From the NCBI GenBank assembly GCA_026168455.1, contig CM047426.1:49361589-49425588 (forward strand): 64,000 nt of DNA, in the 5' to 3' direction. The notes beneath the pieces were generated by a model. That model made no database searches. It saw nothing but the letters and a program-made list of their open reading frames with translations, and was not told the origin of the DNA. Positions 3,666 through 63,475 of the stretch are shown here, in pieces; position 1 is the stretch's first letter, and every line of letters starts with the position of its first letter. This DNA comes from Theocolax elegans. Lineage: Eukaryota; Arthropoda; Insecta; Hymenoptera; Cerocephalidae. The position numbers were made by a program, and so were the translations under genes.

Positions 3666-4014
3666 AAATTCCACAATAACGATTTTAAAGGGTTAAATCC
3701 AGGTTGTAATAAAATTAACAACCAATTTGATTTTAAAAGTTGTACGACGTTTCGTCTGCCAGGTTTTGCAGACCTCTTCAAGTACATAAATGTCAAACAG
3801 TTAGCAATGATCTTCCATTACTCGTAGATGACTTTGACTTGACTCTACTCATCTACGAGTAATGGAAGATCATTGCTAACTGTTTGACATTTATGTACTT
3901 GAAGAGGTCTGCAAAACCTGGCAGACGAAACGTCGTACAACTTTTAAAATCAAATTGGTTGTTAATTTTATTACAACCTGGATTTAACCCTTTAAAATCG
4001 TTATTGTGGAATTT
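3666..4014. repeat. Palindromic pair of Penelope-like terminal repeats
   Basis: Bases 3666-3831 and 3849-4014 are near-perfect reverse complements with a 17-bp loop. Each arm carries a hairpin followed by CGAAACGTCG, the signature also seen in the terminal repeats of the PLE at 58787-60145. A third, partial copy lies at about 18190-18410. Head-to-head terminal repeats are a known arrangement in Penelope-like retroelements. No protein frame survives between the arms, so this looks like a terminal-repeat-only insertion near the middle of the large inverted repeat. Confidence 0.8.
3891..3936 (+). ncRNA. Decayed hammerhead-like motif (PLE type 1)
   Basis: TTGAAGA is followed by GGTCTGC, an 8-nt loop, GCAGAC, then GAAAC. 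GTCTGC (3907-3912) pairs exactly with GCAGAC (3921-3926), as stem II of a hammerhead would, and GAAA sits directly after it. The first core base expected to be C is T here, so catalysis is unlikely. A mirror copy lies on the minus strand at 3741-3786 within the other palindrome arm. Confidence 0.5.
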
Positions 4015-7670: not shown

Positions 7671-8164
7671 TCTCTTGCTTCCTTTATAAATTTTTTTTTT
7701 TTTTAAATTTTTGGTAGTTTCCACGTACACCTTTTTACAGGTTTTTACGTATCCCCTACACCTTTATTCCATTTCATTCCATTTCCAATTTTACTTCCTC
7801 TTTACCCCACCTTCTCGCATTCGCCCGGGGTTATGCCCGTGGAGAGAGGGAAAACCTGTGGCCAAACCCGTTGGGATAAATGCCATTTAGGAAAACCTCC
7901 TCCGAGAAGGGCGGTGTATTCGAGAACAATTCTGTTTGGGTGGCAAGGTCACATTGCGTAGACTTTAACACCGAAACCGAATGCCTCACACCTCCCGCTC
8001 ACGTTGTGGAATGTGAAAAAACACCTAACCGATCATTTAAGCTAAGCCCGAGAACGGTCACCCATCCAAGTGCCAACCGCGCTCGGTGCTGCTTAACTTT
8101 CATGACCGGCCGAGGTGCGTTTCCGCCACTCCGCCACCGTGTCGGTTCTCTTGCTTCCTTTATA
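7671..8164 (-). mobile_element. 5S rRNA-derived SINE, complete, with 18-bp target duplication
   Basis: The element occupies 7689-8146 on the minus strand and is flanked by an exact 18-bp duplication beginning TCTCTTGCTTCC (7671-7688 and 8147-8164). Near its 5' end it contains AAGTTAAGCAGC and GATGGGTGACCG, which correspond to the box A and box C regions of eukaryotic 5S rRNA and would give an internal RNA polymerase III promoter. The 3' end is A-rich, seen as a T-run at 7690-7705. A homologous element lies at 37043-37868. The body downstream of the 5S-like head is unrelated to 5S. Copying would depend on a LINE-encoded reverse transcriptase. The open frame across it (7880-8176) is incidental. 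Confidence 0.9.
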
Positions 8165-33251: not shown

Positions 33252-33275
33252 TATATCGTCGCCTTAGTGCAAGAA

Positions 33276-33530
33276 GGTTCCAATTCAAATTTTTCTTCAA
33301 AAAGGGTCCAATTCAAATATTTGTTTCAAAAAGGTTCCAATTCAAATTTTCGTTTCAAAAAGGTTCCAATTCAAATTTTCGTTTCAAAAAGGTTCCAATT
33401 CAAATTTTTGTTTCAAGAAGGTTCCAATTCAAATGATTATTTCAAAAAGGTTCCAATTCAAATGTTTATTTCAAAAAGGTTCCAATTCAAATGTTTCTTC
33501 AAGAAGGTTCCAATTAAATTGTCAACTTTG
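33276..33530 (+). repeat. 29-bp tandem array, left
   Basis: About nine units of a roughly 29-bp repeat built on AAGGTTCCAATTCAAAT plus a TTTCGTTTCAAA-like spacer. Because the unit length is not a multiple of three, frames on the plus strand give repeating peptides that should not be taken as proteins. Confidence 0.95.
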
Positions 33531-34314: not shown

Positions 34315-35424
34315 TACTGTAACTGTATAGTTCGAATTTACGCCCACTTATACCAATAAATATATCTTCACTGCCTATACGATTAAAATAACTTTATTGG
34401 CTTCGTAACAAATACATATTCCCAATTGCCTATACGAATATGAATATCCATCCGTAATATCCATCCATAAAACTACGACGCGCGTAGCGGGCTTTATCCA
34501 CTATTCCACTAGTACTATTAATACACTGCGAGACTTTTTCTCTGTAAAAGACAGTGCATAGCGAACACTGTACCCGCGTGACTAAATTCATCGTTAAAAC
34601 GCATGCGCGTTACTTTGAAAAACAAGTGCCCGATCACCGCGTTTTAAGATGTTGGCGAAAACTAAGATGTAAGGTGCTCTACATCAGAAAAGACGGTGTA
34701 GAGTGAACATTATACATACGATACTAAATTCATCGAAAAAATACATTGAAAAATTATAGGGGTGGTACATCTGACTGGTTACCGACGGAGCAAAAAAACT
34801 TAATTATTACAATTATTTAATACCACCTCCTTAAGCTGATAGAAATATAAATAAAATTCTCTTATACGTATTATAGCTTAAGCGATTTATGATTAATATA
34901 AACAAAATGTTTAATCAATACTATTATTAACTATATAAATATTGAATCATAATAAACCATGCCAAAAATATAATACAGTATTAATATTTTCAACTTTTTC
35001 TTCCATTATTTTTATTAAAGTTATTACATTTAATTTGCAAAATGTTTATGCAAAATTGTAATTCAATCAAGAATCTCTTGTAGCACTGGGAGTGCTAGCA
35101 GTGCATTAGAATTTTCATATATTCCTTTAATTTCAAATATTGAAACTGTTGGTAAAAATCATATAAATTATTTTCATTTTTTTATATCGTCGTGATTTAC
35201 GAAGACCGGCCCATCTGAATGCTTTATTAAATGTAAACGTGCTAGTCTTCTTAAATACGACGATATAATTCTTCAGCAAAAATTATTTTACGAAACCGCG
35301 AAAATATTTAGATAAAAATTTTCTAATAAGAAATGCCGAGAGTTATTGAAAAGGTATTAGGTGATCAAAATTTTTAGAGATTAAGGTGCAGTCACGATTT
35401 TTAGTGAAACAAAGTTGACAATTG

Positions 35425-35690
35425 GAATCTTCTTGAAGAAATATTTGAATTGGAACCTTTTTGAAATAAACATTTGAATTGGAACCTTTTTGAAATAAAC
35501 ATTTAAATTGGAACCTTTCTGAAATAAACATTTGAATTGGAACCTTTTTGAAACGAAAATTTGAATTGGAACCTTTTTGAAACGAAAATTTGAATTGGAA
35601 CCTTTTTGAAACGAAAATTTGAATTGGAACCTTTTTGAAACGAAAATTTGAATTGGACCCTTTTTGAAGAAAAATTTGAATTGGAACCTT
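35425..35690 (-). repeat. 29-bp tandem array, right
   Basis: This is the mirror array of 33276-33530, with about nine units read as AAGGTTCCAATTCAAAT on the minus strand. Slight differences in spacer sequence (AAATAAACATTT versus AAACGAAAATTT on the plus strand) group the units into two blocks in both arrays, in matching order. Confidence 0.95.
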
Positions 35691-35759
35691 CTTGCGCTAA
35701 GGCGACGATATATTTACATACTCATAATAGTGCACTTTTTAGGTAGCCTCTCGCCACTT

Positions 35760-36960: not shown

Positions 36961-37401
36961 ATAATATAAACTTAAAGCAAACACATCAAATTATATAAAT
37001 AAAATGAATTAATAATATAATAAATATAATTAAAATAATGTAACCGACACGGTGGCGGAGTGGCGGAAGCGCACCTCGGTCGATCAGGAAAGTTAAGCAG
37101 CGCCGAGCGCGGTTACTACTTGGATGGGTGACCGTTCTCGGACTTAGCTTAAACGATCGGTTAGGTGTTTTTTCACATTCCACAACTTGAGCGGGAGGTG
37201 TGAGACATTCGGTTTCGGTGTTAAAGTCTACGCAATGTGACCTTGCCACCCAAACAGAATTGTTCTCGAATGCACCGCCGTTCTCGGAGGAGGTTTTCCT
37301 AATAGGCATTTATCCCACGGGGTTTGGCCACAGGTTTTCCCTCTCCCCACGAGCATAACCCCGGGCGAATGCGTGAAGGTGGGGTAACGGGGGGAAATTG
37401 G

Positions 37402-37779
37402 AAAGAAAAAACCATCTTCCTCGTCAGAATACAGCTGGTTTTCAAATAATTTTTATATCTGTCATTTGTATCTAGAGACGAGATGCCTGGACTCTACTGA
37501 TGAGCCCACCAGGCATACTCAGGGCGAAATACAATTTTTTTCTTTCTTTTTTTTTTTTTTTTTTTTCCGTCTTATTAAGGTTTTATTAATTTCATACTAC
37601 AATCAACTAAATTTTATATTTTTGTTGACCTAGCTTGTCTTAGTCTTTTTTCAAACATTCATCCTGTGAGGTTTATTAAGTGGCTGGTATTAATACAGTC
37701 CGCCTTACTTGAGATGTAAGGAATATTTCTTTGGCTTGTAAAGATCGATAAATTCATATATCTTATAAAGAAAAAACCA
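37402..37779 (+). mobile_element. Hammerhead-bearing retroelement, copy 1 (352 bp)
   Basis: The insert 37415-37766 is bounded by a perfect 13-bp duplication AAAGAAAAAACCA (37402-37414 and 37767-37779), which fixes its borders. It has no protein frame. A complete hammerhead ribozyme lies 52-120 bp from its 5' border, followed by a T-rich tract and a 3' part with CCTGTGAGGTTT, GGCTGGTATTAATACAG and AATAAATTCAT. The same body occurs on the minus strand at 62306-62867. A 13-bp duplication implies target-primed reverse transcription. The association of ribozyme, terminal repeat and partial inverted copies suggests a non-autonomous Penelope-like or retrozyme-like element. Confidence 0.88.
37466..37534 (+). 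ncRNA. Hammerhead ribozyme (copy 1)
   Basis: All parts of a type I-like hammerhead are present. Stem III is TTGTAT (37466-37471) with ATACAA (37529-37534). The cleavage dinucleotide is UC (37471-37472). Stem I is TAGAG with CTCTA (37473-37477, 37492-37496). The core is CTGATGA (37497-37503). Stem II is GCCC with GGGC (37504-37507, 37522-37525), then GAAA (37526-37529). Loop 1 contains ATGCCTGG and loop 2 CCAGGCAT, exact complements of 8 bp, which could form the loop-loop contact that speeds hammerheads in cells. No core base is mutated, so self-cleavage after 37472 is predicted. Confidence 0.9.
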
Positions 37780-37981
37780 AAACAGGAATAAATAAAGGTG
37801 TAGCGAATACGTACGTAAAAACCCGAGAAGGGTATACGTGGAACCTACCAAAAATTAAAAAAAAAATTTATAATTAAAATGATGTAATAATATACATTTA
37901 TTTTTTGTGCAATTCTTATTAATATTATACTTTAAGATTAAAAAAAGTTATACCGTCACTTGCATGGAAATGAAAACATTG

Positions 37982-58706: not shown

Positions 58707-58845
58707 ATCATTCCTACGTCGTAAGCATACGTCGTAATTGTAGATAGTTACCCTCCATTATTTTATTTTGGTTTTTTAAACGATCTTGTAGGGCAATTCA
58801 CAGGATGTTGAATAAATTTAATACCTTATCTTTTAATTAAAAATT

Positions 58846-58886
58846 GCGACGTTTCGTCTGATTATATTTTCAGACCTCTTCTGGCA
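58846..58886 (-). ncRNA. Decayed hammerhead-like motif (PLE type 2)
   Basis: The minus strand reads CCAGAAGAGGTCTGA, a loop and TCAGAC, then GAAACGTCGC. Stem II pairs exactly, and GAAA follows. One core base (expected U) is A. A mirror copy with CATCGC instead of CGTCGC lies on the plus strand at 60046-60085 in the other arm. Confidence 0.5.
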
Positions 58887-59229
58887 CTAATTTATTAACA
58901 GAGACACAATATTAACAATTTTTCAAATTGAACATGAACAAGAAATAATTTTTTATATAAATACACAAAAAACGCAAGAATTACCAATATTGAAAATAAG
59001 TTAAGCTCAACATCGAGCCATGTCAAATCGGACTAACCGTTAATTATAATGAGATAACAAGAAATAAACATATAGAGTATCTAACACTCTTACAATTTTC
59101 CAAGAAATTAACAGATTATTAGTATATACATACGTATATACCTATATATACTGAATGTGAGTAATTTTAACAGCCGTTACAGTATGTTCTTATACAAGTA
59201 ATTTAAACCCATTGTGTCTTCTTTTTTAT

Positions 59230-59460
59230 TTAGTGTGTTTTATGACTATTTATAAAAATCATTTCAGAAATTAACCGTTTTTTACGTACATTTTCTTTGT
59301 CTAATATTTGGACATTTTCAAAATCAAATTGATGGTTTTTATTCTTCATGTGCGTAGATACTACTGATTCAGTTGTGTGTGATTTTTTATGTTCAGAAAC
59401 TCTATCTTTTAACATTAGCTTTGTTTCGCCTGTGTAAATCGATTGAAAATTTTTACAATT
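59230..59460 (-). pseudogene. Penelope-like GIY-YIG endonuclease
   Basis: Reading from about 59460 on the minus strand, an NCKNF motif leads to SIYTGETKLMLKDRVSEH, which is the YIG-x-T...R...H core of the GIY-YIG nuclease. ESVVSTHMKNKNHQFDFEN and LISEMIFIN follow. The frame differs from that of the RT block; a one-base loss near 59470 in the CGVVYK linker explains this. The domain cuts target DNA for PLE integration. Confidence 0.85.
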
Positions 59461-59467
59461 AAATTTT

Positions 59468-59971
59468 TTATACTACACCACATGTATTTAACTTGCTAGT
59501 AGAATTTTTACCTAATTTTATTACGGAATTTAACCTATTTTCGATTTTTGGGATAATTGCTATGTTGTACTTTTTTAACAATCTACTAATTTTTTTGTGA
59601 AAATCTGTATGATATGGTAAGGGTAAGACTGTAATTACTTGTTTTTTATTTTGTTTAACAACGTTGGTCAATCTTATTTGTCGTAACCTGGTGTTAATAG
59701 CATTATTAATAAAACATTTTGGATACTTGTTGTTCCGTAAGATTTTTTTGACAGTGTTTAAATTATCTTGGTGAAAAGTTGAATCTGATAGTAGTATTGC
59801 TCGATCTATTAAATTATATATAATGTTCTTTTTTTGACGATCTGTATGATGAGAGTTGAAGTTTAAAACTCTGTCTAAATTCGATTCTTTACGATACGAG
59901 TTAGTTACAATTTTGTTGTTTTTTCTCATTAAACTTAAGTCTAAGAAGTTAATTTTATTATTTGTTTCCAA
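59468..59971 (-). pseudogene. Penelope-like reverse transcriptase, C-terminal part
   Basis: The 167-codon frame opens with INFLDLSLMRKNNKIVTNSY, matching the PLE motif after the RT palm, followed by NFNSHHTDRQKK, the diagnostic N-[FY]-x-S-x-H block, and LLSDSTFHQDN and RQIRLTNV. It ends with LNTCGVV at the start of the endonuclease linker. The catalytic YxDD region would lie upstream but is absent. The relationship to 25572-25865 is clear. Confidence 0.9.
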
Positions 59972-60317
59972 TTCATGTGTGAATTCTGTTGTTCATGTTC
60001 AATTTGAAAAATTGTTAATATTTGTGTCTCTGTTAATAAATTAGTGTCAGAAGAGGTCTGAAAATATAATCAGACGAAACATCGCAATTTTTAATTAAAA
60101 GAAAAGGTGTTAAATTTATTCAACATCCTGTGAATTGCCCTACATGATCACTATGGACACGTAGTTATTAGTATATTAAAGATCGTAAAGCTCGTAGGTC
60201 GTCTAATAATAAGACTAATCCAGATTATCTGAACGTCTTCTAGACAAGAATTGCTTAAAATACTATCATTAAAATTATTGCAAATATTGTTATTTTTTTC
60301 TATAATATAGTTAGTCG

Positions 60318-61248: not shown

Positions 61249-62015
61249 AACTTCGAAGTGTTGATAATAATTTCAAATTCCTTCCCCTAAGTGAATCCCG
61301 GAATCTGAGCAATGTCCCAGCAAAGATTCACTCCGTTAAGGTTTTATTCGCAGAAGCAGCCTGCGTTTTCCGCGTCTTTATACCGCATTTTACTTTATTT
61401 CCGCATGTAGTATAGACATTGTGATTGATTATTACCGTTATACAACAGCTTTATATTATTTTGTAATTTTCACCCTCCCTTGTTGAATTAGTAAATATTC
61501 GTTTGATAAGGGTCAATAATAAATAAATCCAATTTATTTATTATTATCCTTTAACAATCGACTATTTACTCGATTTATATTAATATTTCTGCTTTGCAAT
61601 TAATGATACCATGATGCCCCGTGGATCGCCTAGACCTCAACGGTTCTTACGAGCTCTTTAAAATTCGTCATTGGAACCTCTAAGGTCGATGCGACTGTCC
61701 CCGTCTTTATAGAGTGAGTGTTTTTAATAACTGCTCTTGACTTGCCAGGATCCATCGTTTGTCGAATCTCGTCAAAGATTTTCTCATAAGTTTACCTGAA
61801 TGTATTTTGAGCACGATACCTACTGCTTGGTTTTCTTATTGGAATTTTCTTTAAGCTCAGTCCTGTGCGATTATTCTTGCACTATTCTCCGGTTTACGTT
61901 CACCTTTGTTAATAACAATACCGAGAAAAAATTAATGCTACTTTTATAAGTGTTTAAAATTGTGTAACATTTTTATGTATTTAATTACACTTCTCATTTC
62001 TATGGTATTTTTCAG
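61249..62015. other. Probable intron sequence
   Basis: No frame or repeat is recognised. The stretch ends with ATGGTATTTTTCAG, a plausible 3' splice site for the SH2 exon, so it is likely intronic (inference). Confidence 0.5.
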
Positions 62016-62197
62016 GTGGTATCATGGAAGGTTAGATAGATTCACGGCTGAGGAACGTCTTTGGAGTGCAAGTAAAATGGGTAACTACTTAGTACGAGAA
62101 AGTGATAGAAAACCTGGAAGTTATGTACTCTCTTACTTAGGAAGAACTGGTATTAATCATTTTCGTATAACGGCTGTCTGCGGAGACTACTATATTG
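62016..62197 (+). CDS. vap: RasGAP SH2-domain exon
   Basis: A single exon bounded by TTTTTCAG (acceptor) and GTAAAT (donor, 62198) encodes 60 complete codons of an SH2 domain. It has WYHGRLDR, then AEERL, then YLVRESDRKPGSYVLSYL with the phosphotyrosine-binding FLVRES-like arginine, then HFRI and CGDYYIG at the end. The GDYYIG and ESDRKPGS wording is closest to the first SH2 domain of RASA1-type Ras GTPase-activating proteins, which switch off Ras and bind activated receptor tyrosine kinases. The exon starts with the last base of one codon and ends with the first of another, so it needs flanking exons, which lie outside the window or are too short for me to find. No stop or missing key residue is seen, so the gene looks functional. 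Confidence 0.92.
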
Positions 62198-62305
62198 GTA
62201 AATTTTATTTCTTTTCGTACACAATTAGACTGTACGCAGACATGACAGATATGAAATGTTTTCAAAAAGTTAGGTGATTTTACGATTTTATTAGGAAATA
62301 TTTAT

Positions 62306-62867
62306 TATATGATAAATGAATTTATTGATCTTTACAAGCCAAAGAAACATTCCTCACATCTCAAGCAAGGCGGACTGTATTAATACCAGCCACTTTAGAA
62401 ACCTCACAGGATGAGTGTTTGAAAAAAGACTAAGACACGCTAAGTCAACAAAAATATAGAATTTAATTGATTTAGTATAAAATTAATAAAAACTTAATAA
62501 GACGGAAAAGAAAAATTTTGTATTTCGCCCTGAGTATGCCTGGAGGGCTCATCAGTAGAGTCCAGGCATCTCGTCTCTAGATACAAATGACACATATAAA
62601 AATTTTTTGAAAACCAGCTCTATCCTGACGAGGATGACATGGGGTATATATGCCCTACCTATAGCAAACTTTAATAAGTGCCACATATTAACAGGTAGCC
62701 CCCTAACGCACTTACATAGAACTAATGTCTTAATCGTCAGAATATTGTTACATAAGGCATATCCTGTGAGGTTTCTAAAGTGGCTGGTATTAATACAGTC
62801 CGCCTTACTTGAGATGTGAGGAATGTTTCTTTGGCTTGTAAAGATCAATAAATTCATTTATCATATA
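62306..62867 (-). mobile_element. Hammerhead-bearing retroelement, copy 2
   Basis: This 562-bp copy is on the minus strand and shares the body of 37415-37766. Its ends, 62306-62412 and 62761-62867, are a 107-bp inverted repeat with one mismatch (GGCGGACTGTATTAATACC and its complement). This is an inverted copy of the element's own 3' end placed at the 5' side, as in Penelope-like elements. An extra 118 bp (62641-62758) absent from copy 1 lies between this and the ribozyme. It sits about 110 bp downstream of the SH2 exon, in the presumed intron. It has no protein frame of note. Confidence 0.85.
62518..62586 (-). ncRNA. Hammerhead ribozyme (copy 2)
   Basis: The minus strand repeats the full hammerhead of copy 1 with one loop-2 substitution. 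Stem III is 62581-62586 with 62518-62523, and the cleavage C is at 62580. Stem I is 62575-62579 with 62556-62560. CTGATGA is at 62549-62555. Stem II is 62545-62548 with 62527-62530, and GAAA is at 62523-62526. Loop 1 ATGCCTGG and loop 2 CCAGGCAT remain complementary. Conservation of every core and stem base in a second, separately inserted copy, while surrounding sequence has diverged, supports function. Confidence 0.9.
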
Positions 62868-63475
62868 ACTTATAGTGTAAAAAAGCAATAAATTCACGAT
62901 TTTTTTTAATAGTTGGTAAATTCAAATTTTAAGGAAATATTTATTAATTAATTGATATTTATGTTGTGGTATTCAGGGCCAAACAAACGTTTTTTTAATA
63001 CTTTTATCAATCGCTAGTTTTGCTAAAAAACTCACTCGTATATAATCTTCCGCATCTTGACTTAAATTATGAATTGTCGATTCATGCTTTCAGAATTATG
63101 AAAAAATGCAAATTAAGAAAGTCATATTGTTCATCTTACCCAAAATACGACATTTTAAACGAAAAAAAAGTACCTTTATTTTTATATTGAAACTTTCTGC
63201 GGATTTCTATTATTCGTAAATTTTTTCATCTATTAACACATTTATTGTTAGCAACCCAAAAACTGTTATAAACGAGTTTTTGAAAATCTTCATAACCGAC
63301 AAATTATTTATTTATTAATATCAATATAAGCAAACAGATTTTTGCTTTAGACCATTATGTTGTATGTTGCTATTTTAAAAAAATCCTAGTCAGGAATTTG
63401 TTGTGCACGGGCTGTAGCAGTTTGCATCTACCTTAACTGTAGTGGAGTTAATTTCCTTAATTTGCGGTCTCTTAA
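62868..63475. other. No gene seen (presumed intron)
   Basis: AT-rich DNA without a recognisable frame or repeat. No second SH2 or SH3 exon of the RasGAP gene is apparent here. Confidence 0.45.

Follow-up and report, generated by a model that had tools for sequence, protein, structure and literature searches.

A putative type III hammerhead ribozyme with complementary loops 1 and 2, carried in two copies by a short retroelement of Theocolax elegans

The 64,000-nucleotide stretch of Theocolax elegans DNA analysed here (the window; positions are counted from its first letter) contains two copies of a short retroelement, each with a hammerhead motif (Table 1). Copy 1 is bounded by an exact duplication of its target and has no inverted arm. 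It splits a SINE-like repeat that has flanking repeats of its own, and a second, uninterrupted copy of this repeat elsewhere in the window, 90.5% identical over 389 bp, is without the 352-bp insertion. We take the letters of the SINE-like repeat to resemble 5S rRNA; the Rfam 5S model was absent from the E-value-mode matches to a 1201-bp region and to the whole window. The 5S-like stretch upstream was also considered as a part of the ribozyme element and was ruled out, being a separate repeat represented by the uninterrupted copy.

Table 1. Positions of the two ribozyme copies, the insertions that carry them and related features of the window
Feature	Position	Strand	Evidence
Retroelement insertion, copy 1 (352 bp), carrying the ribozyme	37415..37766	+	Exact 13-bp repeat on either side
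Left target-site duplication AAAGAAAAAACCA	37402..37414	+	Exact 13-bp repeat
Right target-site duplication AAAGAAAAAACCA	37767..37779	+	Exact 13-bp repeat
SINE-like repeat split by copy 1 insertion	37044..37869	+	Own 18-nt flanking repeat, 1 mismatch
Uninterrupted full SINE-like copy	about 7688-8146	-	A-rich end, exact 17-nt flanking repeats
Putative type III hammerhead ribozyme, copy 1	37466..37534	+	Core; stems I/II/III of 5/4/6 bp; Rfam Hammerhead_3
Loop 1 8-mer ATGCCTGG	37483..37490	+	Loop comparison
Loop 2 8-mer CCAGGCAT	37509..37516	+	Exactly complementary to the 8-mer of loop 1
Copy 2 insertion, probable extent 624 bp	62308..62931	-	Between 15-nt repeats TAATAAATATTTCCT
Putative type III hammerhead ribozyme, copy 2	62518..62586	-	Rfam Hammerhead_3 at 62517-62587, 36.7 bits
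3'-terminal arm of copy 2	62305..62412	-	Matches 62761-62868 in inverse orientation (108 bp, 99% identity)
Second, inverted occurrence of this arm, on the 5' side of copy 2	62761..62868	+	108 bp, 99% identity
Separate fragment, ORFs 59230-59992	59230..59992	-	Inverted arms 58782-58941 and 59989-60149 (161 bp, 96% identity)

An earlier note on this DNA had described an intact hammerhead in what is now copy 1, and its coordinates, strand, core, three stems and cleavage site are all borne out. The core begins with CUGAUGA at 37497 and continues with GAA after stem II; stem I is UAGAG/CUCUA, stem II GCCC/GGGC and stem III UUGUAU/AUACAA, and the cleavage triplet AUC places the predicted cut after C37472, between 37472 and 37473 (AUC/U). 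Both copies have a CUGANGA...GAA core with a UH cleavage triplet, and in both of them loops close stems I and II while stem III is open, the stems of copy 2 measuring 5/5/7 bp. By topology and core, the predicted ribozyme is a type III hammerhead.

The Rfam model Hammerhead_3 (RF00008) aligns to copy 1 over 37465-37535 (+) with 34.5 bits, which corresponds to E=2.3e-5 in a search of the 1201-bp region and to E=0.0012 for the whole window; for copy 2 the whole-window value is E=0.00029. Neither copy reaches the curated gathering score of 48.5 bits (34.5 and 36.7 respectively), although the E-values are low. A default Rfam scan of the window, which applies the gathering thresholds, returned no matches because copy 1 scores under that cut-off, and E-value mode was therefore used. 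A structural descriptor (CTGANGA core; stem I of at least 4, stem II of at least 3 and stem III of at least 5 bp; loops up to 30 nt) matched twice in the window and not once in 300 windows simulated with a first-order Markov model. The identification as a hammerhead is supported by the core and the stems, by the match to Rfam and by a second copy that is almost identical.

The two ribozyme copies differ at 1 of 69 positions, an A to T change at 37508 that gives copy 2 an additional pair in stem II. Outside the ribozyme, the alignment of the two insertions shows 21 differences in 261 ungapped positions (Fisher P=0.057 against 1/69), a count that excludes gapped columns, among them a run of T after the ribozyme that is longer in copy 1. 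The smaller number of differences in the ribozyme is suggestive of constraint, not conclusive. The loop 8-mers are identical in both copies, and two copies are too few for a claim of covariation.

Copy 2 extends further than copy 1 in the 5' direction; the 121 bp that precede its ribozyme part occur nowhere else in the window. It has the two features of a Penelope-style insertion, namely inverted terminal copies (108 bp) and a short duplication (15-nt repeats), with 63 bp of unassigned sequence lying between the arm and the left repeat. Because of this spacing between the inverted arm and one TAATAAATATTTCCT repeat, the boundary on the 62931 side is uncertain. In copy 1 the 13-bp repeats are present without an inverted arm. 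The longest ATG frames are 32 aa in copy 1 and 101 aa in copy 2, the latter without a Pfam match up to E=1, and neither copy contains a reverse transcriptase or GIY-YIG ORF; copies of this kind could be either pLTR-only or truncated. Copy 2 starts about 30 bp beyond an ORF at 61936-62277 (+) that encodes an SH2 domain (Pfam E=1.1e-14), presumably an exon of a RasGAP-like gene.

The same window contains a separate fragment near 59 kb whose ORFs are flanked by inverted arms, a layout also described for rotifer Penelope elements (PMC3846280). We take its ORFs to resemble Penelope proteins; the longer one had no Pfam match and the shorter one a sub-threshold match to GIY-YIG (E=0.012), so that its assignment to the Penelope family is weakly supported. 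There is no clear sequence in common between this fragment and the type III element. In addition, CGAAACGTC occurs in hairpin contexts at six sites (3926 and 44203 and 44816 on the forward strand; 3754, 25274 and 58856 on the reverse strand), of which 3926 and 3754 lie inside an inverted repeat of 166 bp and 100% identity (3666-3831 and 3849-4014). These six motifs presumably resemble the minimal hammerheads of Penelope type.

Rotifer Penelope elements are described as having inverted terminal copies and 8- to 10-bp duplications (PMC3846280), and Penelope-like elements share with the element described here inverted terminal copies, short duplications, A/T-rich targets and an element-borne hammerhead (PMC3846280, PMC11167929). 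The hammerheads of published Penelope elements are minimal and of type I, whereas the motif described here is of type III and has no attached ORF. From the inverted ends, the duplications, the 59-kb fragment and the CGAAACGTC motifs, we consider mobilisation in the manner of Penelope elements the likeliest for the type III element. The connection to Penelope-like elements drawn in the earlier note is supported indirectly, by flanking duplications, the inverted ends of copy 2 and Penelope-like remnants elsewhere in the window.

The speed of a hammerhead depends on contacts between its loops. Loop 1 is the 14-nt ACGAGAUGCCUGGA and loop 2 is ACCAGGCAUACUCA in copy 1 and CCAGGCAUACUC in copy 2, and the exact 8-nt complements reported previously in these loops (ATGCCTGG from 37483, CCAGGCAT from 37509) are indeed there, in both copies. 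Allowing one bulged A extends the complementarity to 11 bp, with duplex energies of -19.0 in copy 1 and -17.8 kcal/mol in copy 2. When the loops were shuffled, a complement of at least 8 nt arose in 24 of 50,000 trials with the loops of copy 1 and in 30 of 50,000 with those of copy 2. A comparison set was drawn from viral and prokaryote contigs with degenerate hammerhead patterns, which gave at least 337 loci and at least 40 distinct type III candidates from outside the window. Among the 40 candidates listed the longest loop complement was 0 bp in one, 1 bp in 16, 2 bp in 18 and 3 bp in five. As loop 2 measures at least 8 nt in no more than 7 of these 40, they offer a weak standard of comparison for animal elements. 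An earlier first pass, with 32 non-window candidates among the matches listed, likewise gave complements of 3 or less. Exact scans of viral contigs with a core pattern specific to these copies and with a pattern from the 3' region found no match.

Base-paired loops as such have been published before. Loop pairing is predicted for about 40% of hammerheads, of all three types, with at least four pairs in most type II cases and tested examples of five and six; it usually accelerates cleavage, and compensatory change rescues it (PMC3088659). In the sources consulted, published loop contacts are non-canonical or short helices. In the pseudoknotted hammerheads of types I-III the pairing is predicted to bring stems I and II into line, as it would here, with at least four pairs, five and six in the tested cases, against eight exact pairs in the present motif (PMC3088659). 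A plant satellite hammerhead is likewise of type III with a stable pairing of loops 1 and 2, but it belongs to a plant viral satellite RNA (Miller & Silver 1991). Type III motifs with loop pairing are also reported from termite and dipteran genomes, and the authors searched hymenopterans, hemipterans and a cockroach for this architecture without finding it (PMC7936874). Since contacts of this kind are already known, including in type III motifs of insects, only the length of the pairing looks unusual. The suggestion in the earlier note of a distinct variant therefore keeps its force for the length of the contact and loses it for base-paired loops as a novelty (PMC3088659, PMC7936874). Two things are unusual here, the length of the loop contact and the presence of a complete type III hammerhead within an insertion of Penelope style.

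We consider it probable that the locus represents a type III hammerhead in a short retroelement without recognised coding sequence, inserted in the manner of Penelope elements. In this model transcription would run in the orientation of the ribozyme, its three stems would form, and loops 1 and 2 would pair with each other and so bring stems I and II into line. The RNA would then cut itself after C37472, which would define one end of the element RNA, and a Penelope-like reverse transcriptase/endonuclease would copy this RNA into A/T-rich sites. The two Rfam matches, the two descriptor hits as against none in the simulations and the loop complement in both copies argue for this model, as do the 352-bp insertion with its exact 13-bp duplication (absent from the other copy of the repeat), the 108-bp inverted ends resembling those of published Penelope insertions (PMC3846280) and the faster cleavage and compensatory rescue reported for paired loops (PMC3088659), while the ratio of 1/69 to 21/261 differences (P=0.057) is suggestive only. 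Against it stand the two scores below 48.5 bits, a nested fold that favours a hairpin and not the hammerhead, the lack of an attached Penelope ORF and of clear shared sequence with the 59-kb fragment, the lack of a tandem copy in the window, and the minimal type I form of published Penelope hammerheads. The model would place a full type III hammerhead in a Penelope-style insertion, where the minimal type I form is the published rule.

The preference of nested folding for a hairpin provides the main alternative. In both copies the minimum-energy nested fold is a hairpin formed from the same loop letters, which would bury the core: -21.3 kcal/mol for the 69 nt of copy 1 and, over 71 nt, -22.0 in copy 1 and -24.7 kcal/mol in copy 2. 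The hammerhead stems alone give -9.8 and -10.8 kcal/mol, and the hammerhead with pairs allowed inside its loops -15.2 and -17.0 kcal/mol, for copies 1 and 2 respectively. The hairpin of the 8-mers also forms in all four longer contexts that were folded. It is unlikely, though to be taken seriously, that the loops mainly form this nested hairpin and hide the core, giving an attenuated or two-state hammerhead; the RNA would then be mostly inactive until the order of folding, pairing with another RNA or the binding of a protein frees the core. The extension of the complement past the 8-mers, to 11 bp if one A is bulged out, would suit a hairpin better than two small closed loops, and a continuous 11-bp duplex would be hard to fit between two small closed loops. 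There is also a possible precedent for attenuation, in that the cleavage of a plant satellite hammerhead is reportedly attenuated by an alternative tertiary structure, to go by the title of the 1991 report by Miller and Silver. The hammerhead of an Anolis Penelope element, moreover, cleaves only with its own protein present (PMC11167929).

Nested folding does not score pseudoknots and hence not the kissing form, and this bears on the strength of the alternative. The duplex of the 8-mers alone amounts to -12.8, which together with the hammerhead stems would put the kissing form near the hairpin in energy, and published loop pairing usually speeds cleavage (PMC3088659). Of the kissing interaction claimed in the earlier note, the complementarity of the loops holds; the contact itself does not follow from it, since the same letters make the nested hairpin that nested folding prefers. 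Extensive pairing between the loops may either aid folding or switch the ribozyme off. A more specific proposal, which we hold to be doubtful, is a natural hammerhead with two states of similar stability, an active fold locked by the kissing contact and an inactive nested hairpin, in which the timing of self-cleavage of the element RNA would depend on the order of folding or on whether the reverse transcriptase is bound. If true, it would be a built-in ribozyme switch in a Penelope-style mobile element. With loops complementary over 8 bp (11 bp with the bulge), this type III motif would offer a compact test of whether long pairing makes a faster ribozyme or shuts it off.

A Penelope-style insertion may also be weighed against metazoan retrozymes, which are likewise short, low in G+C and equipped with a hammerhead and duplications of more than 4 bp (PMC7229834). 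On this reading the ribozyme would cut multimeric transcripts into single units, and these, as circular RNAs of unit length, would serve as templates for reverse transcription. The 352 bp and 31.5% G+C of copy 1 fall within the ranges published for metazoan retrozymes (PMC7229834), but the low G+C says little because that of the window itself is 32.9%. Metazoan retrozymes are of type I and usually in tandem, in contrast to the type III motif seen here, and we found no tandem copies of the ribozyme element in the window, which makes the retrozyme reading improbable.

Close published counterparts are the type III hammerheads of insects (termite, dipteran and Drosophila pseudoobscura) together with the delta-like RNAs of toad and termite, which have the same topology, a 5-bp stem I and Watson-Crick pairing of loop 1 with loop 2, the insect motifs being isolated in their genomes as is the case here (PMC7936874). 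They have an internal loop and an extra hairpin on helix I, a 6-bp stem II and a 4-nt GCCR/YGGC contact, whereas the present motif has a simple 14-nt loop 1, a stem II of 4-5 bp, a contact of 8 bp (11 with the bulge) and a small retroelement as its host (PMC7936874). The features of the termite and dipteran delta-like subgroup (an extended helix I with an apical hairpin, a 6-bp stem II and GCCR/YGGC) are thus not found in this motif. That the element derives from a delta-like circular RNA agent, as a fossil piece or by horizontal transfer, and is kin to the termite and dipteran hammerheads, is consistent with the 5-bp stem I and base-paired loops shared with the termite and toad motifs (PMC7936874), but it is very improbable in view of the missing hairpin on helix I, the shorter stem II, loops that read GCCU/AGGC instead of GCCR/YGGC, and target-site duplications and inverted ends that fit retrotransposition. 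Least credible of all is a chance assembly of hammerhead-like letters without ribozyme ancestry, for which the Rfam scores under the curated cut-off may be cited, notwithstanding which no such motif arose in any of 300 simulated windows, the window-wide E-values are 0.0012 and 0.00029, and the rare loop complement falls within the same 69 nt.

Elsewhere in the window, a 29-bp tandem repeat forms two arrays of opposite orientation at 33258-33524 and 35382-35729, whose complementarity reaches 96% over 248 bp.
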